Made by a program: the position numbers and the translations under genes. From Alligator mississippiensis (Eukaryota; Chordata; Crocodylia; Alligatoridae), in contig NC_081824.1 of assembly GCF_030867095.1 (NCBI RefSeq), forward strand, positions 120,908,162 through 120,972,161: a stretch of 64,000 bases of DNA, written 5' to 3'. Of the stretch, positions 2,986 through 64,000 are shown one piece after another. Within the stretch, counting starts at the first letter, position 1. Each line of letters begins with the position of its first letter. The notes below the pieces were generated by a model. It saw only the letters and a program-made list of their open reading frames with translations. It did not search any database and was not told where the DNA came from.

Positions 2986-3346
2986 CAGAAGAGGAATCGC
3001 ATTAATTTGACCTGGCTCCCCAGCGTCTGTATAAATTGCACATTTCAATGGGGCTTTTGGCCCTTTTATCTAATCGCTGAATCAATCAGAGATTCCATAA
3101 AGCCCCACTGAAGTGCATGATCTATATCGGGGTGGGCAATTATTTTGGGCAGAGGGCCGCTTACTGAGTTTTGGCAAGCCATCGAGGGCCGCATAACAGG
3201 CAGCCAGGGCAGATAAATATTAATTTTCTAAATTTTTTAGGGGCCCTGAAGGTCGGATAGAATAGCCTGGCGGGCCGCATTTTGCCCACCCCTGATCTAT
3301 ATAGACACTAAGTGAGCCAGGTCAAACTGATGTGATTCCTCTTCTG
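2986..3346. mobile_element. Fold-back (palindromic) MITE, interrupted
   Basis: The left end reads cagaagaggaatcgcattaa and the right end is its near-perfect reverse complement (gatgtgattcctcttctg). The symmetry continues inward for about 75 bp per arm, taking in tttgacctggctc, a gtctgtata/tatagacac pair and a tgcac...tggggc pair. Without the inserted hAT element and one copy of its target duplication the unit would be about 186 bp and almost fully palindromic. I could not see a clean target duplication, so the superfamily is unassigned. It has no coding capacity. Confidence 0.65.
3120..3302 (+). mobile_element. hAT MITE with perfect 8-bp TSD
   Basis: The element itself is 3128-3294 (167 bp). 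It begins cggggtgggcaattattttg and ends gcattttgcccacccctg, whose reverse complement matches the start. It is flanked by identical 8-bp copies of atctatat at 3120-3127 and 3295-3302. Eight-base duplications and CAGGGG-type termini are diagnostic of hAT elements. The interior (gagttttggcaagccatcga) is shared with the copies at 13288, 39805 and 63688, and with the minus-strand copy ending at 26991. It is non-coding and sits in the right arm of the fold-back element around it. Confidence 0.85.
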
Positions 3347-13279: not shown

Positions 13280-13481
13280 CATTAGGGCAGGGGCGGGTAA
13301 TTATTTTGGGTGGAAAGCCTCTTACTGAGTTTTGGTAAGCCATTGAGGGCCACATGACAGGCAGCCGGGGCAGATAAATATTACTTTTCTAAATGTTTGA
13401 GGGGCTCTGTGGTTCAGATACAATGGCCTGGTGAGCTGCATCTGGCCCATGGGCCACATTTTGCTCACCCCTGCATTAGGG
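13280..13481 (+). mobile_element. hAT MITE with perfect 8-bp TSD
   Basis: The element 13288-13473 (186 bp) begins caggggcgggtaattatttt and ends cacattttgctcacccctg. It is flanked by identical 8-bp copies of cattaggg at 13280-13287 and 13474-13481. The interior is collinear with the 3128 element, including gagttttggtaagccattga and gcagataaatatta, and has about 20 extra bases near the 3' end. It belongs to the same family and was mobilised independently. Confidence 0.85.
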
Positions 13482-13620: not shown

Positions 13621-15906
13621 TACAGGTTTCCCTTGCTTTATGCGGGTTCTGTATGTGCAAATTTGCTCTTATGCAATGGCCCTTTTTATACCAAACATTT
13701 GTTATATGCGAGGTAAATTCACTCTTTTGTGATCGGTGTGGTGGAAGCCTGCAGTCAGCTGCTTTGTGAAGTGCATTGTGGGAGTGATGTGAACCAAAAT
13801 ATAGCCTCTTGTGTGGATCTGTGATCTTCGTTTGTTGCCTGAGACACGTGTTTCTGTAGTTGCCATCCCCATTATGGCTTTTAAGAGTCCCATTAGCTTA
13901 TCTCCTACTCCTCTCCCTGGTCCATCAATGAAGCACAAGAGAACTTCACTAACACTGGAGACAAAACTCGAGATTTTGAACCATGCAGAAGCTGGTGAGG
14001 GGCCCTTTGCACTTGGTTGTGCATTCAGTCTGGGTGAGTCAATCATACGTGCCTTCAAGAAGAATGCCGACAACACAAGGAGTTCTGTGATGTATTCTAC
14101 ACCACTTACTGCCAAGATAGCAATGAGAGTAAGAAACCTGATGTTGGAGAAAAGGAGTAGATGCTGGTGGTGGGAGTAGAAGATCAGACCCAGAGGAAGA
14201 TGAATCTTTCCTCTGCTGCGAAAAGGGATAAGGCCCTGCAAATTTACGGCTGCCTGCTTCAAGAGGATGGTGGCCATGAAGACCCCTTCATGGCTAGTAA
14301 GGGCTGGTTTAACAAGTTCCTTTGGTGTATGAACCTGAACAATGTTAAGATGACTGGGGAATCTGCAAGTGCTGATCATGAAGCTGCTGCAAAATTTCCA
14401 GAGGGGCTTCAAGCAATCATAGCTGATGAGGGGTACAGCCCTAAGCAAGTTTTCATTGCAGATGAGATGGGGCTGTTTTGGAAGCTGATGCCATCTAGGC
14501 CGTACATCTCCAAGGAAGAGAAGGTTGCATGTGGGGTCAAGGCAGCAAAGGACAGGCTGACTGTCCTACTGTGTGGCAATGCTGCTGGAGATTTTAAGTG
14601 TAAGCCACTGATGGTCTACAACTCCCTAAACCCACATCCATTAAAAGGACTGAGTAGGAACATGCTGCCTATAGACTGGGCTGCAACCAAGAAGGGATGG
14701 GTGACAGGCCAAGTTTCTGAGGATTGATTCACTTAACATTTTATCGTGGAGGCACAGCACTATTGTAGGGAAGCTAACCTTGCATTCAAGGTGTTGCTCG
14801 TCTTTGAAAATGCCCCTGGACACCCTAAACACCTGGAAACTATGAACCCCAATGAGAGAACCGTGTTCCTCCTCCCTAATATGACTTCACTAATCCAGCC
14901 TCTTGATCAGGGCGTGATATCAACATTCAAGGCCTACTACCTAAGAAGGAGCATCTCCCAGCTGCTGGAGGATACTGACAGACCCAACAAGCCAACAGTC
15001 CATGAGTGGTGGAAGGCATGCAATGTGAGGGATGCCATAGACAACATTAAGGCTTCATGGGACAAAGTGAAGTCCACCACCATAAATAGTGCTTGGAAGC
15101 CTCTATGGAAGGAATGTGTTATGAACTCCAAGGGCTCCCCCAAACTGTGCACAACTGTCCAAGAAGTTATTGATCTTGGACAGAAGGTGGGAGGATATGG
15201 CTTTTAAGATCTGGAGGAGGGAGACATCATGGAGCATATCGATTCCCACAATGAGAAATAAGTGTTGATGAACTGATAGAGATTGCAGCTGCTGATGAGG
15301 AAGAGGAGGAACAGGAGCAAGAGGTGGTCTTCAAGGTAAAGGGCATGACTATGAAGAAGTTGGCAGAGTTTTTTTTCACAGGCCAAGAGAATTGCTCAGT
15401 TTGCCCTGGATATGGACCCTAGCCTGGACAGGAGCCTGCAGTTCAAGCATGGTTTTAACTCTCTCCTTGGTCCCTACAAGGAGGTGTATGCCCAGATCCA
15501 ATGACTGGCGAAGCAGTGCACCATGTTCTTGAAGCCTCACTCAGCTACCCCGCACTGGTGTTGGAGGGTGGTGAGAGCCCTGTGTCTGTTGATTCTCCTA
15601 TGGATGCTACCCTGCCTATACCTCCTACCAATGATGTGGAGTCTGACACTGAAGACCCTTCACCACCCTCTTTTCACACCAACTAAAGATTCACCAGCAC
15701 CCTGTGCTTGTGTGTACTGTTGGCTGTTGGCGAGTATCAAAATTGTCTTGTCAAAGTGGTAGAAATGGGTCTGGGGGTCAGTACCATTGAGGTCTTGAAA
15801 CATATCCCTGTTTGTTACATTGTAAAGTGGGCTCCCTTTATGCGAATTTGAGGTATTCACCATTTTCCAGGAATGTGTGTACAGCATAAAGTGAGGGAAA
15901 CCTGTA
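13621..15906 (+). mobile_element. Tigger (pogo) DNA transposon, complete but dead
   Basis: The terminal inverted repeats are caggtttcccttgctttatg at 13623 and a matching end at 15904 (reverse complement caggtttccctcactttatg). Two mismatches are seen in 20 bases. The element is 2282 bp and is flanked by TA on both sides (13621-13622 and 15905-15906), the target duplication of Tc1/mariner/pogo elements. Its single gene is a CENP-B/Tigger transposase on the plus strand, now broken. Because both ends and the whole body survive, the copy is complete in structure even though it cannot encode a working enzyme. Confidence 0.92.
13874..15686 (+). pseudogene. Tigger/pogo transposase pseudogene
   Basis: A pogo-family transposase binds its element's ends and cuts them with a DDE/D nuclease. 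The chosen ATG (13874) precedes a CENP-B-type helix-turn-helix (KRTSLTLETKLEILNHAEAG, about 13932-13991). A second DNA-binding domain follows near 14290-14390 (GWFNKF, LNNVKMTGE). The nuclease shows VFIADEMGLFWK near the first Asp and LIQPLDQGV near the third, but the second Asp lies in a LVFENAPGHP context where the family normally has Asp. A frameshift lies near 14160. In-frame stops occur at 14725-14727, a few codons later, and at 15205-15207, with further shifts after that. The acidic, Ser/Pro-rich C-terminal tail lies in another frame and ends at 15686. The protein is clearly inactive. Confidence 0.9.
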
Positions 15907-26622: not shown

Positions 26623-26990
26623 ACTAATAATTTATTTTTGAGTTATTATGCAATTCCCTCTATATACACTATGCAAACAGAAATCATGACAAAAATATTT
26701 TTAGTAATAAAATTAAAATATGTTCTAGTAGTGGTTTGACTTTTAGTGTATGATTTAGTTTTTTTCTGGTTCTGAGATGGCAATCCCCACTCCCAAAAGG
26801 AGTATTTCCAGGAGGCGCAAGGGGAGAAACTTCTGGTGGCAGAGATCAGGGGTTGGGGGATGTGGATGTCTGGTCCCAAGATGGCAACAAGGGGGTGGGA
26901 CAACGGTCAAGGGGCAGGGCTATCCACGCAGCCCTCGACAGCTCACCAAAAGTCATTAAGTGGCCCTCCACATGAAATAACTGCCTGCCC

Positions 26991-27035
26991 CATAAAGTGT
27001 TCCCCCATAAAGTGTTTCCCCATAAAGCTTTCTGC
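26991..27035. repeat. Short tandem repeat, three ~15-bp units
   Basis: The unit cataaagtgttcccc is followed by a close second copy and a decayed third (cataaagctttctgcccc), directly at the outer edge of the hAT element. Confidence 0.6.
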
Positions 27036-32757: not shown

Positions 32758-32762
32758 CTGAC

Positions 32763-33456
32763 TGTGCGGGCTGGGGACGATCTGGGCCCTTTTTCGAGCC
32801 ACGTGGGCTGTGGCCAGCAGCCCGGGCACGCTGGATCGGAGAAAACAGGCGACGCGCTAGAATTAGTCACGGACGCTTAGTGGTTGATTCAAGATTGTTT
32901 ACTTACACCGAAGATGGTCGCGGTGTAGGCTGCACAGTTTCCCAGGCACAGCTTCGATTAAATCCTCGTTTGAGGACTACGACAAGCTCGGGTCTCTCCC
33001 ACGGAGTGGTTGAGGCTCCGTGGATCCTTTTGCGCGCAGGGAGAGGGATACGTCGAGCATTGTGAACGGCAACGGGGAGAGGCTAGAGGCTGATCAGACC
33101 TCTGTTGCCTGCTTGAAATGCGCTGGGTCCGATAGGCTCCGCAGCGCTTAGAGATCTTCACACAGCGTGAAGATCCCTCCTCCTGGTGTTCTTGGAGTCC
33201 TCCAACTTGGGCGGAAACCACTCAAGGTTTTTATATGGCTAGCAAGCCAATCATTAGCCACCACGTGTGAATAATTTCATGCAAGCCAATAATGGGGCTC
33301 AAATTATCATACAAATGGTGGGAACTCTTTGCACCGAGCATTTCTTAACTGCAAAGAAGAAATGCACACTGCAAAGAAAGCTACAAATTGGCGGGAAAAT
33401 AATTCAGTGGCGCCAAAGCACACGCAAAACAAAAATCACACCCTTGGGTTGTGACA
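32763..33456 (-). repeat. 3' LTR
   Basis: Minus-strand 3' LTR, 694 bp, with TG...CA ends. It aligns end to end with the 5' LTR at 35305-35999. A TATA box on the minus strand (TATAAAAA, about 33228-33235) lies roughly 225 bp from the U3 edge. Confidence 0.92.
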
Positions 33457-33467
33457 TTCCCCCTGCT
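33457..33467 (-). other. Polypurine tract
   Basis: Read on the minus strand, GCAGGGGGAA abuts the 3' LTR. This is the expected position and composition for the primer of plus-strand DNA synthesis in LTR elements. Confidence 0.8.
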
Positions 33468-33872
33468 GAAGGCACAACTGAATTATGCTGCACGCTTGTC
33501 ATTCGAGTGATCCAGAGCTTATCACGAGTCATCAAACGAATAAACAAATAAACAAACATAAAATTCCCCAACATAAAATTCACTCTCCTGGGATTGAGTT
33601 GCATAATAACCAACACAAATACACATAATCAGATTCACAACAAAAACTGCACGATCAGGGCTTCAGTGGGCGTCATGGCGAAGTCGTACTTCTTCCGATG
33701 ATGTCATCCTTCTCAGGGCTTTTCTTCACCACGCATTCTAAATTCCGGATCTGTAAACAAAAACTCTCAAAAAAAAAAATAGGTTAACACATCTCAACAT
33801 ATTTACAAAGTTTCCATGGAACTTTACTATAATACAAGTGTTCACCACCCTAAACTACTCTCTCTTGCACAC

Positions 33873-35371
33873 TCAACTAGATGAAATTGTCGAGGAGCCG
33901 TCGTCTAGCTCTTCTAGATAACGGAAACCTAGCTCATAGGCCAGTTGCCATTGGCCTGCGTCCCCTAAAATCCGAAGTTGCCGCTTATTGAGTCCAGAAC
34001 GCTGTAGGAGAAATCCAAACATGTATCGCTCTTCTGGTGTTCTCTGTGGCAGTGGTGGAAGATTGGATTCACGATGTCTCGTGCCTTGAATCTCAGTCGG
34101 GTGTCAACAGTCCCAATCAATAGATAATCTTGGCTCCATCAGGATACGCAGTCGTGACAACTGACGAAGAAGATGCCAGTTAGTCATGCTTAAACTCCAT
34201 GGACATGAGTTCCAGCCATGAGACTATAGCCTCGTCAGACTCCATTTCAGATTCTTTGTACAGCTGTTGTAATTCCGTCCAAGCACGAATGCGACTGGTG
34301 ACGACATCTCGCTCATCAGTTACTTGATTGATTGATCGTGGCTGTAGGACAAGCTGCTCTTTCGGGAGTTGATGTTGTTACAGGCTGAACTACTGCTGCG
34401 GGAGTCACTGTTGCTGTTACTGCTTCAGGCAGGAGGGGCGGATGCACTCCTCCGCTTGACTCTCTCTTTTGTTGGCAGGAAGGCGTGGTCGGCAGAGGCG
34501 TCGCCGCGTCACTAGGCGGGATTGCCGGAGACGACGCTGCGTCGATGGGCGGAGTCGCTGACCGAACTCTCGCGGGTTCCTCTGAAGCTCCACCCTTCTT
34601 TTCTGGTTCTTCCACGCAGTCTCCCTCTTGCTCGGTGCCATCTTGGACTGGCATTTCAGGATCCCTTTTTTCAGCTGCTTCTTTGACCGCCTGAACAACC
34701 ATACGCAGCTGGGCCTTTAAACTTAAATTCTTGTTCATTAAATCAGCAATTGTACAGAAAGTTGCACTTAATTCTCCCCCCTTGTTGTACCGCGGGGCCA
34801 CCCTCTCATCTGCGGCGCGTTCCTCCATCTCCAGATCTTCGCGGAGCTCGGATGGAAGCTCGCGACCCCTTAATCTAGATGCCATGAGGGGAGGGAACCA
34901 GCCGATCGGCACCGGCACTTCACTCTCCCGAGCATATCGTAGGCATCGGGCACACTCCCGGGTGAGGGTCAGGTTTACTGCGCCCGCCAGGTTGACTCTG
35001 GCGAGGGACACAGTATCGAGGGGCCTGAACAGGACCCACTCGCCGCTCATTATACACCCGAACGCCGCAGGGAGCAAATACACTTCCCTCTCTCTCGGGG
35101 CTCCGTCTTCAGAAGCTTCCTCTTCTCCCTTCAGCGAAAGGCGTCCGCTGATAAATCTCTCACCCATTCCACCTGCCTGGTGGTAAGCGATATGCGCCTC
35201 CAGCTCCTCAAAACTTTTCACTTGGCGTTTGTTATCGCACCAAGGGCAGTTCTTAACCAATTCTAGCTCTAACGGGTTCTCTCCTGATCCCATCCTCGTC
35301 GCCATGTGCGGGCTGGGGACGAGCCGGGCCCTTTTTCGAGCCGCGCGGGCTGTGGCCAGCAGCCCGGGCAT
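33873..35371 (-). pseudogene. gag-position gene with C2H2-type motif, decayed 3' part
   Basis: The open frame runs from 35371 to 34316 (351 codons). Its first 22 codons lie inside the LTR, so the ATG at 35305, formed by the last LTR base plus the primer-binding site, is the likelier start (329 codons). Counting from 35371, residues 42-64 form C-x2-C-x14-H-x3-H, a classical C2H2 spacing. A further C-x2-C pair (ECARC) follows. The C-terminal third is rich in Ala, Pro, Ser and Thr. Beyond the stop, open stretches with protein-like composition continue in other frames to about 33873, so the original gene was probably longer and has frameshifts. I recognise no named gag domain. By position it would be the structural protein, but a zinc-finger accessory protein is possible. 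Confidence 0.65.
35285..35304 (-). other. Primer-binding site
   Basis: Directly after the 5' LTR the minus strand reads TGGCGACGAGGATGGGATC. TGG at this position pairs with the CCA end of a tRNA, as in most LTR elements. I do not assign the tRNA. The site also supplies the TG of the ATG at 35305. Confidence 0.8.
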
Positions 35372-35999
35372 GCTGGATCAGAGAAAACAGGCGACGTGCT
35401 AGAATTAGTCATGGACGCTTAGTGGTTGATTCAAGATTGTTTACTTACACCGCAGATGGTCGCGGTGTAGGCTGGACAGTTTCCCAGGCACAGCTCCTAT
35501 TAAATCCTCATTTGAGGACTACGACAAGCTCGGGTCTCTCCCACAGAGTTGTTGAGGCTCCGTGGATCCTTTTGCGCGCAGGGAAGAGGGATACGTCGAG
35601 GATTGCGAACGGCAATGGGGAGAGGCTAGAGGCTGATCAGACCTCTGTTGCCTGCTTGAAATGCGCTGGGTCCGATAGGCTCCGCAGTGCTTAGAGATCT
35701 TCACACAGCGTGAAGATCCCTCCTCCTGGTGTTCGTGGAGTCCACCACCTTGGGCAGAAACCACTCAAGGTTTTTATATGGCTAGCAAGCCAATCACTAG
35801 CCACCACGTGTGAATAATTTCATGCAAGCCAATAATGGGGCTCGAATTATCATACAAATGGCGGGAACTCTTTGCAACGAGCATTTCTTAACTGCAAAGA
35901 AGAAATGCACACTGCAAAGAAAGCTACAAATTGGCGGAAAAATAATTCAGTGGTGCCAAAGCACACACAAAACAAAAATCACACCCTTGGGTTGTGACA
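35305..35999 (-). repeat. 5' LTR
   Basis: Minus-strand 5' LTR, 695 bp, TG...CA. A TATA box (CATATAAAAA, 35771-35780 on the minus strand) sits about 225 bp from the outer edge, with inverted CCAAT motifs in the U3 sequence upstream. Transcription would therefore begin near 35745 and run toward lower coordinates. I see no canonical AATAAA in the expected place. Confidence 0.92.
35771..35780 (-). promoter_or_regulatory. LTR TATA box
   Basis: CATATAAAAA on the minus strand, conserved in both LTRs and correctly placed for a U3 promoter driving the internal ORF. Confidence 0.6.
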
Positions 36000-36299
36000 C
36001 TGACATACAGATCACACCACTATTTTCATTATTTAAACTTTTGGCTTTAAATTCAGTGAAAATCACCTAAGAAATAATGGGTGAAATTCAGCTTCCACTT
36101 ACAGCTAGAGATTCCTATTTGAAATTGTTTTTCACAGGTGCAACAATGGAATTTAGCCCATTTTGTATAAGACTATTTTTTTCTGAAATATGAAAATGAG
36201 CAGCAGTAGGAAAACGTAGCTTTACTGCGGACCTAATTTTACAAATATAATGACATTGATTTCAATAGTTTTGTACGAGTGTACAACTGAAGTAATGCA

Positions 36300-38560: not shown

Positions 38561-39804
38561 CATAACCATATACAAGTTTGCTGTGCATAGACTGGTTTAA
38601 AAATGGCAGAACCTGGTCTAAGATAGACCTGGATTGACTTGCTCTCAAATTTAATTAATTTAGGTTAGCCTGGTGAATCAAACTTCTGTACCAGATCCCT
38701 TATCAATTCAAGCTAGGTCACTGTCTTCCAGCATCCCAACCTTCTTTGTAGCTCTTTACTACCTCCTCCTTGCAGGGATCCACGCAGGAATTTGGTCTAT
38801 TCTTGGCTGCTTCAGCCAAGTGCCCCGTGCGCCCCACCCTGATCCAGAAGAACCCTTCCCCCCAGCTCTGCCTCCTGCCTCTGGCCATCTGTCAGCTGCA
38901 GGTGGGGGGTGTCTGTGTCTTCTTCACAAACCCCAGGAACAAGGCACCCATGTCCCTGGGTTGTGCCCTCATACCCTGTCACAAAGCACTGCACAGAGTA
39001 TACATAGACTTGACACTGAGACCAGGAGAGCTCCTGTTCTCAGGCACAGTCCCACAGACCCTGAACCTGCCTCCTATACACCAAGCCAGGGAACCCCATG
39101 GCCCCATACGGAGGCACAGCCCCATGGACCCCAACTCCGGCTCCTGAGCATCACCTCTTAGATGCCAGAGCCAGGCATCTTCCCACCCAGACCCTAGCAT
39201 GGACCACCCAACAAAGCAAGAGCTGGTGTGGGCAGCGTGCCTCTGGTGGGTCAGGGTGGCTGGGGGCAGAACACTGAGACTGGGCCTGCGCAGAGGCAAC
39301 CCTGAAACCTCCATGGCTCAGCCATCGCCAGCAGGTACCCGGGCCATGGGTACCTGGCATGCTTCAAGGCTTTTCTGGCCCATAGCTACAGAGTCCCAGA
39401 GTACTGAGGCTGGTGGAGCAGGAAGCACTGAGTATCCAGGCCAGGGCAAGCAGACAGATGCACCTGGAAACTTCAGGAACAGGTAGGGCATGGCCAACTG
39501 CCTCGATGTTGCAGGTACAGGACACTGGAAATTTCCAGGCCAGGGTGCATGGCTTTTGTCAGAATCATGGGGTATCTGCTGGTAGCTCCTGTAAAGTTTG
39601 AGGTTGTGGGCTGGCCTAATCAGTGAAGCCCTGGTCACACTGAAGCAGGGGCCACACTTAACTGCACACACCAGAATCTGCACCAACATGTATGCACCGC
39701 TCCTTCCATCTGCCCACCCTTCTAGCCTTCCTTCTACCCTTCTATCCTGCCTTCCATCCTTCCCGCCTGCTTTCCATCCACCCCCTTGCAGCCAGACCCT
39801 AACC

Positions 39805-39900
39805 CAGGGGTGGGCAATTATTTTGTCTGGAGGGCCACTTAATGAGTTTTGGTGTCCTCTTGAAGGCCACTTTGTCTCTTTCTCTCTCTCTTGGAACCCA
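39805..39900 (+). mobile_element. 5' part of a caggggtggg-family hAT element
   Basis: The sequence caggggtgggcaattatttt followed by gagggccacttaatgagttt is nearly identical to the first 50 bases of the copies at 3128 and 63688. The matching 3' end is not found, so the copy is truncated or its body has been replaced by the (TCTC)-rich sequence at 39870-39892. Confidence 0.65.
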
Positions 39901-55584: not shown

Positions 55585-57002
55585 ATAGATTCATAGATTC
55601 ATAGATGTTAGGATAGGAAGGGACCTCAATAGATCATCGAGTCCGATCCCCTGCATAAGCAGGAAAGAGTGCTGGGTCTAGATGACCCCAGCTAGATGCT
55701 CATCTAACCTCCTCTTGAAGACCCCCAGGGTAGGGGAGAGCACCACCTCCCTTGGGAGCCCGTTCCAGACCCTGGCCACTCGAACTGTGAAGAAGTTCTT
55801 CCTAATGTCCAATCTAAATCTGCTCTCTGCTAGCTTGTGGCCATTGTTTCTTGTAACCCCCGGGGGCGCCTTGGTGAATAAATGCTCACCAATTCCCTTC
55901 TGTGCCACTGTGATGAACTTATAGGTGGCCACAAGGTCGCCTCTTAACCTTCTCTTGCGGAGGCTGAAAAGGTCCAGTTTCTCTAGTCTCTCCTCGTAGG
56001 GCTTGGACTGCAGGCCCTTAACCATACGACTGGCCCTTCTCTGGACCCTCTCCAGGTTATCCGCATCCCTCTTGAATTGCGACGCCCAGAATTGCACGCA
56101 GTACTCCAACTGTGGTCTGACCAGCGCCCTATAGAGGGGAAGTATCACCTCCTTGGACCTATTTGTCATGCATCTGCTGATGCACGATAAAGTGCCATTG
56201 GCTTTTTTGATGGCTTCGTCACACTGCGGACTCATGTTCATCTTGGAGTCCACTAGGACTCCAAGATCCCTTTCCACTTCTGTGCCACCCAGCAGGTCAT
56301 TCCCTAGGCTGTAGGTGTGCTGGACATTTTTCCTCCCTAGGTGCAGCACTTTGCATTTCTCCTTGTTGAACTTCATTCTGTTGTTTTCTGCCCACTTGTC
56401 CAACCTGTCCAGGTGTGCCTGCAGCTGTTCCCTGCCGTCCGGTGTGTCTACATCTCCCCATAGCTTTGTGTCATCTGCAAACTTGGACAGAGTACATTTG
56501 ACTCCCTTGTCCAAGTCACTGATGAAGACATTAAAGAGTATCTGTCCAAGGACCGAGCCCTGCGGGACCCCACTGCCCACACCCTTCCAGGTCGAAACCT
56601 ACCCATCCGCCACGACTCTCTGGGTGCGACCCTCCAGCCAATTCGCCACCCACCGGACTGTGTAGTCATCCAAGTCACAGCCTCTTAACTTGTTCACCAG
56701 TATGGGGTGGCATACCGTATCGAAGGCCTTCCTGAAGTCTAAGTATACGACATCCACCCCTCCTCCTGTGTCCAGGCATTTCGTAACCTGGTCATAAAAA
56801 GAAACTAGATTGGTCAGGCACGATCTGCCTGCCATGAACCTGTGCTGATTTCCCCTCAGCATAATTTGTCCTGCCGGGCTCTCACAAATGTGAGCCTTGA
56901 TAATTTTTTCAAAGACTTTGCCAAGGATGGAGGTGAGACTGACTGGCCTATAGTTGCCCGGGTCCTCCTTCCTCCCCTTTTTGAAAATGGGGACCACGTT
57001 TA
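55585..57002 (-). mobile_element. CR1 LINE, 5'-truncated, nearly open
   Basis: The 3' end is marked by three direct tcatagat-type units at 55585-55606, the short terminal repeat typical of CR1. The body runs to about 57000, where it stops just upstream of the reverse transcriptase motif that starts VPIFKKG. The 3' non-coding part (gggacctcaatagatcatcg, gcaggaaagagtgctgggtc) is of the crocodilian type. CR1 moves by target-primed reverse transcription and usually leaves 5'-truncated copies without target duplications, as here. The low number of lesions suggests this is a relatively young copy. Confidence 0.93.
55678..56997 (-). pseudogene. CR1 ORF2 reverse transcriptase (5'-truncated)
   Basis: This is the C-terminal half of a CR1 ORF2 protein; the N-terminal endonuclease is missing through truncation. 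Two open stretches in the same frame, 56997-56599 and 56580-55678, are separated by one or few in-frame stops (a TAG near 56587). The upstream piece has NYRPVSLTS and DFRKAFDTV with the first catalytic Asp region. The downstream piece has SGVPQGSVLG and FADD (about 56481-56470), the family's form of the YxDD catalytic pair. It ends with the conserved WNGLPREVV and RRLDEHL region. With no endonuclease and at least one stop it cannot work, although the catalytic residues visible are intact. Confidence 0.93.
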
Positions 57003-57420
57003 AATCAGTTCAAATCTGTAACATAACAGAAGTTCAGTGCACACAAACTGCTTTCAAAGTGGCCAAAAACAGTTTAAGATAAACCTGGGTGGATATAGTA
57101 TCAGATTTAACTGATTTAGGTTAAATCCATTTATTGAACTTCTGTCCCAGATCCCCTCCAGATTCAAATTAACTCCCAGTCTCCCAGCATCCCAGGATGC
57201 CTTGCACTTCCCCCGTAAACCCTCTCCCCCCCAACCCCCCCCAATTCCCAGGGTGTCTGGTCTAGCCTTGGCCCAAGCTGTGCTCCAGGCGAGCAGGGAG
57301 GCATGCTTTAGTGCCTCTGCCATCTTCTGGCCTCGGCCACTGTAAACATGTGGCTGCATTTCTAGATTCAAAAGTTAATGTCTGTTCACTTGATTTTCAG
57401 TTCAATTTATACACCTTAGC
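57003..57420 (+). repeat. Non-autonomous relative of the 37.8-kb Harbinger-like element
   Basis: The segments agttcagtgcacacaaactg, gtttaagataaacctgg, gatttaggttaaatcc and cttctgtcccagatcccctc occur in the same order as their counterparts at 38577-38720. The 3' part (gtctgttcacttgattttca) corresponds to 40970-40995. It has no transposase, so it looks like an internally deleted derivative. It abuts the truncated 5' end of the CR1. Confidence 0.45.
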
Positions 57421-59258: not shown

Positions 59259-61358
59259 TTAAATGACTTTTAAAAATTGAAAAAAGGAAATAGGTACAGA
59301 TGGAGTGAGGAGGGTGGCATTCACTCCGTTTGCACGTGGAGCTTGGGGAACCCCAGCAGCAGGAGGTTCACCTTCAGGAACACCAGCAGCTACACCAAAC
59401 CAGGATCCAAGCAGGTGCAGTGGGGGGTCACTACATCTCCAGCTCAGGACCCTGGTCAGTGGACAGGACAGGTGTTCCCAGACAACCATGGCCAGATCCG
59501 GCCACATCTAACTGTGGCTTACCCAGTAGGCCAAGGGGTTTAAACAGCAGAGACTCCATGTCCTTGGCAAGATAGGCAGACAACAAGGCCTGATGGTGGG
59601 ATCTGGTGCCTCTGGACCCCACCATGGAAGCCGTGCCCTTGGCCCACATTGGCAGCACCTGTGGTAGAGGAGACTGGCTGGTGGATGGTGTGCTAGCATG
59701 GGACAGTGGATCCCCCTCTTCCACATCCCCCTGCCTCTGCCCTTCTGCCTCCCTGACTCTCTTCACCAGCACCTCCATCCACTGATACAGGGTTTCGCTG
59801 CTGCATATGCTGCTCTTCACTGCCGGGTCACACATGGTGGCCAGCATGTGGACCATACTGGACTGCAAGGGATCAAGACATTTCCTGATGCCCTCCTTCA
59901 GTCACCTCACCAGTGCTTGGACGTCTGGTGACATTGGCTTTCCCCAGCCAGGAACACTGAAGTTGGCATCACGTACTGCCTTGACCATATTGGCCCCATT
60001 GTTGTTGACCATGAACCCGCAGGTGAACTCGCCCTGCCCAATGAGCTAACTCTGCACAAAGCAGTTCATGGCCCCCATAATGTCTGTCACCGTATGGGAC
60101 TCATCCATCAGTTTGGCTTGAAGGTGAGCCCACTGATGGCCTCACTGGTCACACTAGTGCCCCGTGAGGGAGAGGTAGGCGTGATCTCCACCCTAGCTGC
60201 TCCAGATGTCTGAGGTGAAGTGTAAGGCCACCTGCAGACCTACCTTGTGCAGCTCCTCCCTCATGTACTCCATGCCTGCCTCATACAGGGAGGGCACCAC
60301 CGTCCTACTGAGGGTGGTGTGTGCAGGCACTTGGGAGGATGGGTCCACGAGCACCATGAGCCACCTGAACCCTGGCCACTCAACTAGGAAGAAGGGTTGG
60401 CTATCGACAGCAAGCATCTCCTCAATGCTGTAGGTGATCTTGCTTGCCCTTGCAACAGGCCCCCCTTTCTGTCTGCCTTTCCCCCACTGTTCCAGGGTGG
60501 CCTGCCTCTGCTTTGGGGGCAGGGGGAGGGGACTTTGGAGCAAGAGGAGGACTTCCCTTTGGGCATGCTCCCACTGGTGCCAAGCTGAGGAGGAGCAAGG
60601 GCAAAGGGGTGGTGCCTGCAGAGATGCATCAGCATCCCCATGGTGCTCATGTGTTTTGTTCCCTTGCCCCAGCTGGTTTTGGCTCAGCAGTGCAGGCAGA
60701 TAGCGTAGATGGGATGATCTGCCAGCTCAAAATGATCCCAGACCACAATACCACCACTTCTGGGGGGCAGGTGCAAGTGTGGATGCTGCAATTTCTCCCT
60801 CCTCAGCAGGCAGAGGCACAGCAACAGGAGGAGCAGACTCAGCTGAGCCACTTGCCTCTTCACCCTCTACCTCAGCTTCCTCTGAAGTGCCTTCTGGGGA
60901 AGGAGACCTGGCTCTAAGGGAAACTTGAGATGTGTGGAGCACAAACTCAGCTGATTCCTGCCCCTTTCCCCAGAATTTCCCTTACTAGGGTGCTCGGATC
61001 CAGCTCCAGCTGCAGCTCCAGCTCTTCCTCTGGCACTGGAAGGCTCAGCATGGGAAATGAAATGGGTGTGGAGGAGACTGTCATGCTGGTGTGCTGCTGC
61101 TGCTGCTTGTTGTCATGGTGGTGGTGGTGGGGGAGTTATGGCTGGTGCTCTTGGAGGGGATGCAGTCTCAGGAACAGGTAGTGGCACTGGCCCCTGCTCC
61201 CCTCTCTTTGCTGCTTCTGGAAGCCTCATCCCTGCTAGTTGTAGGAAAGAGGCTGCATCTCAGTTTGGGAGGGGGAGGGGAAATTACACCTCTCCCTCTA
61301 CCCCCTCTTCTTCCCCTCCCTGAAGGCTTGCCAGCTGCCTTTCCACCACACTTCATGG
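59259..61358 (-). pseudogene. hAT transposase with BED zinc finger, broken
   Basis: A hAT transposase excises and inserts the element via an RNase H-like nuclease. The likely start is the ATG at about 61358 (MKHTMKCGGKAAG), followed by a low-complexity Gly/Arg, then Glu/Ala-rich N-terminus. A BED finger lies at about 60605-60765: Trp-rich start (QKWWYCGLGSF), a CLHC pair, then a HL..HH pair. The core near 60193-60510 has ITYSIEEMLAVDSQPF, FRWLM, VVPSLY and TSDIW, holding the first catalytic Asp. Near 59985-60015, NNNGANM stands where the family usually has a DN pair, so the second Asp appears changed. A C-terminal dimerisation-like segment (LSAYLAKD, NPLAYW in a neighbouring frame) lies at 59500-59580. 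Several frameshifts and stops separate these pieces. Confidence 0.75.
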
Positions 61359-63687: not shown

Positions 63688-64000
63688 CAGGGGTGGGCAA
63701 TTATTTTGGCTGGAGGGCTGCTTAGCAAGTTTTGGCAAGTTGCTGAGGGCCACATGGGTATCCCCACCCCTTGAAAGGTGCCCCACCCCCTGGGCACCAT
63801 CTTGGGACTAGAAGTCCTGCTCCCTAACCCCTGACTTCTGCCACTAGACATCTCTCCCCTTGCCCTTAGAGGTAATCCTTTCAGCAAGGGGGTTTGCTAT
63901 CTCAGAACTGGAAAAATACCAAATTATATTCTAAAAATCAAACATCTACTACGACACTTATTAATTTGATTTAAAAAAACTATTTTTGTTCTGATTTACA
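63688..64000 (+). mobile_element. hAT element, runs past window end
   Basis: It begins caggggtgggcaattatttt and is collinear with the minus-strand copy read from 26991 down to about 26690: gagggccacatgg, ccaccttgggactag-like segment, cttgcccttagagg, tctcagaactggaaaaat. It continues to the last base, so the 3' end is outside. The left 8-bp target copy would be ttatagac (63680-63687). Confidence 0.75.

Follow-up and report, generated by a model that had tools for sequence, protein, structure and literature searches.

A compact LTR retroelement of Alligator mississippiensis with a gag-position open frame and no detectable pol

XtERV-S of Xenopus tropicalis is presented, in the available text of its report, as a class III retrovirus that has LTRs of 705 bp, TGT...ACA ends, a primer-binding site (PBS) for a serine tRNA, and no zinc finger in Gag (PMC8278194). 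Its PBS corresponds to tRNA-Ser(AGA/TGA), and a 158-bp leader precedes gag (PMC8278194). The same text describes 19 deleted copies, Xt-S4 to Xt-S22, all of which have 5-bp target-site duplications and which usually keep the PBS, the leader, the 5' end of gag, and the polypurine tract; only Xt-S4 to Xt-S14 are alike (PMC8278194). Endogenous retroviruses of the ERV3 and ERV4 groups typically have 5-bp duplications and no zinc-finger motifs in Gag, according to the part of the source consulted (PMC4299795). The short Troyka elements, as far as their description was available, are LTR elements without a functional pol, with LTRs of 100 to 400 bp and a C-terminal Gag zinc finger of the form CX2CX8-10HX4C (PMC12440569). 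Leftovers that have no pol and keep their ends and one gene are a known kind of element. Among the matches listed from literature titles and abstracts, neither the element described below nor a reptilian family with a tRNA-Ser(GCT) primer site was found.

The DNA analyzed here, referred to as the window, is a 64-kb stretch of the A. mississippiensis genome, and a structurally complete LTR element spans its positions 32758 to 36004. The two LTRs are 694 bp (32763-33456) and 695 bp (35305-35999) long, each starting with TG and ending with CA, and the sequence CTGAC is duplicated directly outside both ends of the element. An initial annotation of this DNA had proposed LTRs of about 694 bp with TG...CA ends and a 5-bp CTGAC duplication, all of which were seen in the direct sequence, and its estimate of 1.85 kb for the interior agrees with the 1,848 bp measured between the LTRs. 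Alignment of the LTRs revealed differences at 30 of 694 aligned sites (20 transitions and 10 transversions), plus one gap column. No second copy of the LTR or of the interior occurs elsewhere in the 64-kb window, the best outside match having an E value of 0.094 over 21 bases. The features of the element are as follows.

32758-32762, no strand: left copy of the target-site duplication CTGAC (direct sequence)
32763-33456, minus strand: 3' LTR, 694 bp, pairing with 35305-35999
33230-33235, minus strand: TATAAA of the 3' LTR (pattern scan)
33457-33464, minus strand: purine run AGGGGGAA, the polypurine tract, abutting the 3' LTR (direct sequence)
33465-33872, minus strand: stretch without a supported gene, probably the 3' untranslated region (GC content and shuffle scores)
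33873-34315, minus strand: possibly a further, decayed part of the gag-position gene, lying in other frames, as weakly suggested by codon score
34316-35305, minus strand: gag-position open frame of 329 amino acids, its ATG lying across the LTR/PBS junction (open-frame list and shuffles)
35287-35304, minus strand: 18-nt primer-binding site able to pair with the 3' end of tRNA-Ser(GCT) (sequence and published primer)
35305-35999, minus strand: 5' LTR, 695 bp, starting TGTCACAACC and ending CGCACA (direct sequence)
35773-35778, minus strand: TATAAA of the 5' LTR, with ATTGG upstream at 35790-35794 and 35829-35833 (pattern scan)
36000-36004, no strand: right copy of the target-site duplication CTGAC (direct sequence)

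The element is oriented on the minus strand, with the right-hand LTR as its 5' LTR; the PBS, the purine run, TATAAA, and the open frame all agree on that strand. The minus-strand bases that follow the right-hand LTR are TGGCGACGAGGATGGGAT and then CAGGAG, which places the PBS flush with the 5' LTR. In the available text of the source, the published tRNA-Ser(GCT) primer starts with the same bases at 18 of 18 nt, after which the sequences diverge (PMC9072684). A match of 18 bases flush with an LTR would hardly arise by chance. The purine run that precedes the 3' LTR on the minus strand, from 33464 down to 33457, is short at 8 nt. A PBS and a polypurine tract flush with the LTRs had both been claimed in the initial annotation without a strand; both are present, but on the minus strand. 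A pattern scan found TATAAA once per LTR, with ATTGG motifs upstream. The plus-strand orientation was rejected, with TTCCCCC following the left LTR in place of a sequence bearing the TGG of a primer-binding site and with TATAAA confined, within the element, to the minus strand. One observation counts against the minus orientation, namely that the pattern scan found no AATAAA or ATTAAA on the element's minus strand. The plus strand carries ATTAAA in each LTR and at one interior position, and AATAAA at two interior positions. We consider this poly(A)-signal evidence to be the weaker, and it is outweighed by the primer site.

The open frame at 34316-35305 encodes 329 amino acids and begins at the very edge of the LTR; the A of its ATG is the last LTR base, and the TG are the first bases of the PBS. 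In 1,000 dinucleotide-shuffled versions of the interior, no frame was as long as its interior part of 328 residues (maximum, 278), and 1,000 shuffles of the first 989 bp alone likewise yielded none as long (maximum, 304). The claim that a gene occupies the gag position is supported by this frame, which starts at the LTR/PBS junction and exceeds every shuffle in length. A second ATG lies four codons downstream of the first and begins the sequence MGSGEN, a possible myristoylation signal. Near the N terminus, the protein contains a finger-like CPWC...HIAYH motif, CPWCDNKRQVKSFEELEAHIAYH, and beyond this motif it is, judged by eye, rich in proline and alanine. Comparison with Pfam gave no family above the cutoff; PF23165 was far below it, with an E value of 0.18 and 11.8 bits versus the 24 required. 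The PDB search with the gene product returned two rows, both ribosomal L33, at E values of 4.2 and 4.4. Protein scans of IMG/VR, whose viral contigs have little bearing on vertebrates, gave 4, 9, and 11 pattern matches, none of them confirmed, and a 23-base pattern scan of the same viral-contig collection, which does not hold vertebrate genomes, gave 0 matches. These searches brought up no Gag homolog of the gene product: Pfam gave nothing above the cutoff, the PDB nothing better than an E value of 4.2, and IMG/VR nothing confirmed. The single-sequence structure model of the gene product had a mean pLDDT of 39.5 and was unusable.

Downstream of the 329-amino-acid frame, we looked at codon scores and open-frame lengths, using a codon score that was trained on that frame itself, so that only values outside it count as a test. 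For the stretch from 33873 to 34315, 2 of 500 shuffles attained its best codon score, but 146 of 500 contained an open frame as long as its longest, which has 76 amino acids. The open pieces at 34180-34377 and 33873-34103 are neither of them best in their own frame (0.13 versus 0.16 and -0.01 versus 0.14, respectively). Frame 0 leads the codon score from about 34344 to 33984, and this is the frame of the piece at 34180-34377, not that of the piece at 33873-34103. The gene may once have run beyond 34316 and then decayed, as these scores weakly suggest. The region 33457-33872 is unremarkable: 45 of 500 shuffles attained its codon score, and 156 of 500 had an open frame as long as its longest. 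The GC content of 33457-33900 is 0.40.

Fourteen open frames (4 plus 10) were compared with Pfam, from an interior that is overlapped by 37 frames of at least 35 amino acids, and among these 14 there was no protease, reverse transcriptase, RNase H, integrase, or gag family. Even at an E value of 10, the 14 frames gave only two rows, PF23165 with the 329-amino-acid frame and PF16607 (E value, 0.18) with a plus-strand frame. The CCHC, DTG/DSG, YXDD-like, and HHCC patterns that we used were absent from the three element-strand frames. An autonomous element would have a protease, a reverse transcriptase, and an integrase, and the 1,848-bp interior showed these in 0 of the 14 scanned frames, in agreement with the lack of all three enzymes that had been noted from the sequence.

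The interior has a CpG observed/expected ratio of 0.84, and the two LTRs have ratios of 0.82 and 0.72, versus 0.20 for the window. The body of the element had been called GC- and CpG-rich relative to the host DNA; its CpG content does stand out, but high GC alone is not unusual in the window, where other 1-kb bins reach 0.55 to 0.58. The LTR differences fall at 19 of 90 CpG-related sites and at 11 of 604 other sites, and the LTR divergence is 0.045 over all sites (K2P) and 0.018 over non-CpG sites (Jukes-Cantor). The high CpG content fits an insertion that is younger than much of the neighboring DNA, with CpG being lost, and after insertion the copy, an old one, would have decayed mostly at CpG sites.

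Other features are found in the same window. Two neighboring open frames at 55681-57009 on the minus strand, in the same frame and one stop codon apart, match RVT_1 with E values of 1.8e-13 and 1.2e-14 and probably represent a broken reverse transcriptase of the LINE type. On the plus strand, transposase pieces at 13805-15207 include a CENP-B_N match just under the cutoff and HTH_Tnp_Tc5 and DDE_1 matches at 14164-15207; we take these pieces to be a decayed pogo/Tigger-like DNA transposon. In a self-comparison of the window, neither the RVT_1 frames nor the transposase shared sequence with the LTR element. An inverted pair of 312 bp (26681-26991 and 63690-63997) is 73% identical and has related fragments at 3129-3288, 13290-13449, and 39804-39870, together forming a dispersed repeat family. 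Two minus-strand frames in GC-rich DNA, at 59434-59901 (156 amino acids) and 60196-60726 (177 amino acids), look protein-like by eye and had no Pfam match at an E value of 0.01. Neither a tRNA gene (ARAGORN, bacterial setting) nor an Rfam family was detected in the window.

The explanation that we favor, and to which we assign about an even chance, is that the locus holds a non-autonomous LTR retroelement, internally deleted and oriented on the minus strand, derived from a serine-primed retrovirus-like lineage and dependent on the enzymes of a longer relative. Its RNA would be transcribed from the LTR promoter, reverse transcription would be primed by tRNA-Ser(GCT), and the reverse transcriptase and integrase would be supplied in trans by the longer relative. 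By its traits, the lineage appears closest in kind to the class III-like endogenous retroviruses (ERV3, ERV4, and XtERV-S), of which the element has the 5-bp duplication and the lack of a CCHC knuckle in the three element-strand frames. Membership among them is at most putative, because such groups are defined through pol, which the element lacks, and the placement is one of shared traits. Against the favored explanation stand the single copy, with no longer relative seen, the ATG that touches the PBS and the GCT isoacceptor, both unlike XtERV-S, the absence of any match to a Gag in the searches above, and the missing minus-strand poly(A) signal. A more tentative possibility, to which we give clearly less than an even chance, is a private deletion, in which a full-length provirus inserted at this site and later lost pol (and env), so that the LTRs, gag, and the 3' end were left, with no short family existing. 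The same anatomy would be expected from such an event, the element is a single copy within the 64-kb window, and most of the 19 deleted XtERV-S copies have individual structures in the available text of that report (PMC8278194). The same text nevertheless describes Xt-S4 to Xt-S14 as alike, which shows that one short form can build up in several copies (PMC8278194), and the intactness of both LTRs and both interior ends is weak evidence against a private loss.

The origin of the lineage itself is a separate matter. A pol-less LTR retrotransposon of the Ty3/gypsy type, not derived from a retrovirus, would be compatible with either a short element or a private deletion; we regard it as rather doubtful. 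Elements of this type also show 5-bp duplications and TG...CA ends, which we counted in its favor, together with the ATG that touches the PBS and the lack of a known Gag domain, neither of which fits any particular retroviral genus. Set against these are the lack of a CCHC knuckle in the three element-strand frames, the lack of a gag-type Pfam match in the 14 frames, and the combination of a serine PBS, an LTR of about 700 bp, and TGT...ACA ends, which is matched by the class III retrovirus XtERV-S in the part of its report available (PMC8278194). It is very unlikely, in our judgment, that the gene is a captured host or accessory gene carried by a pol-less element and not Gag. It sits directly behind the PBS, which is where gag lies, and no host family scored above the Pfam cutoff; what speaks for capture is the lack of any Gag match and the finger-like CPWC...HIAYH motif with its subthreshold PF23165 match (E value, 0.18). 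Captures of KIT-ligand and nectin3 are described for crocodilian endogenous retroviruses in the consulted part of the source, but of these two published cases one entailed no loss of an ERV domain, and in the other env was replaced (PMC4299795).

Returning to the internally deleted, serine-primed element that we prefer, a more ambitious version of it would be a multicopy gag-only family, leaderless and primed by tRNA-Ser(GCT), with an N-terminal C2H2-like finger unlike described Gags, moved by an unnamed reptilian retrovirus lineage. We think this distinctly unlikely. If many copies do share the short form, they would be a clear example from vertebrates of an element that carries gag and depends on the enzymes of another element, and the partner could readily be recognized by the exact tRNA-Ser(GCT) primer site. 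As a single copy, the element is an ordinary retroviral remnant. The initial annotation had taken the layout for that of a non-autonomous family living on a partner element and had named it a candidate for a poorly described system. This interpretation is partly supported: the absence of detectable pol, the gag-position gene, and the intact cis-acting ends on which it drew all stand, a family with a partner is a putative further step, with no second copy in the 64-kb window, and the suggestion of a poorly described system is weakened because a similar layout has been published for the deleted frog XtERV-S copies, in the available text (PMC8278194).

Among described systems, membership in Troyka was rejected, as neither the LTR length nor the zinc finger reported in the available description fits; the likeness is that of an LTR element without a functional pol. 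For the Lokiretroviruses and Odin, the main text of the paper does not contain the words tRNA, PBS, or zinc. The ERV4 elements of crocodilians and turtles and the ERV3 elements of crocodilians resemble the alligator element in their 5-bp duplication and their lack of a Gag zinc-finger motif, but these groups are placed by pol, which the element does not have, and the main text of the source uses neither the word tRNA nor the word PBS (PMC4299795). XtERV-S differs in its frog host, in its tRNA-Ser(AGA/TGA) primer versus GCT here, and in its 158-bp leader versus none here. Compared by description, in the text available, it shares with the alligator element an LTR of about 700 bp, TGT...ACA ends, a serine-tRNA PBS, and the lack of a Gag zinc finger, and its deleted copies, compared by layout alone, share the 5-bp duplication and the retained PBS, 5' gag, and polypurine tract.
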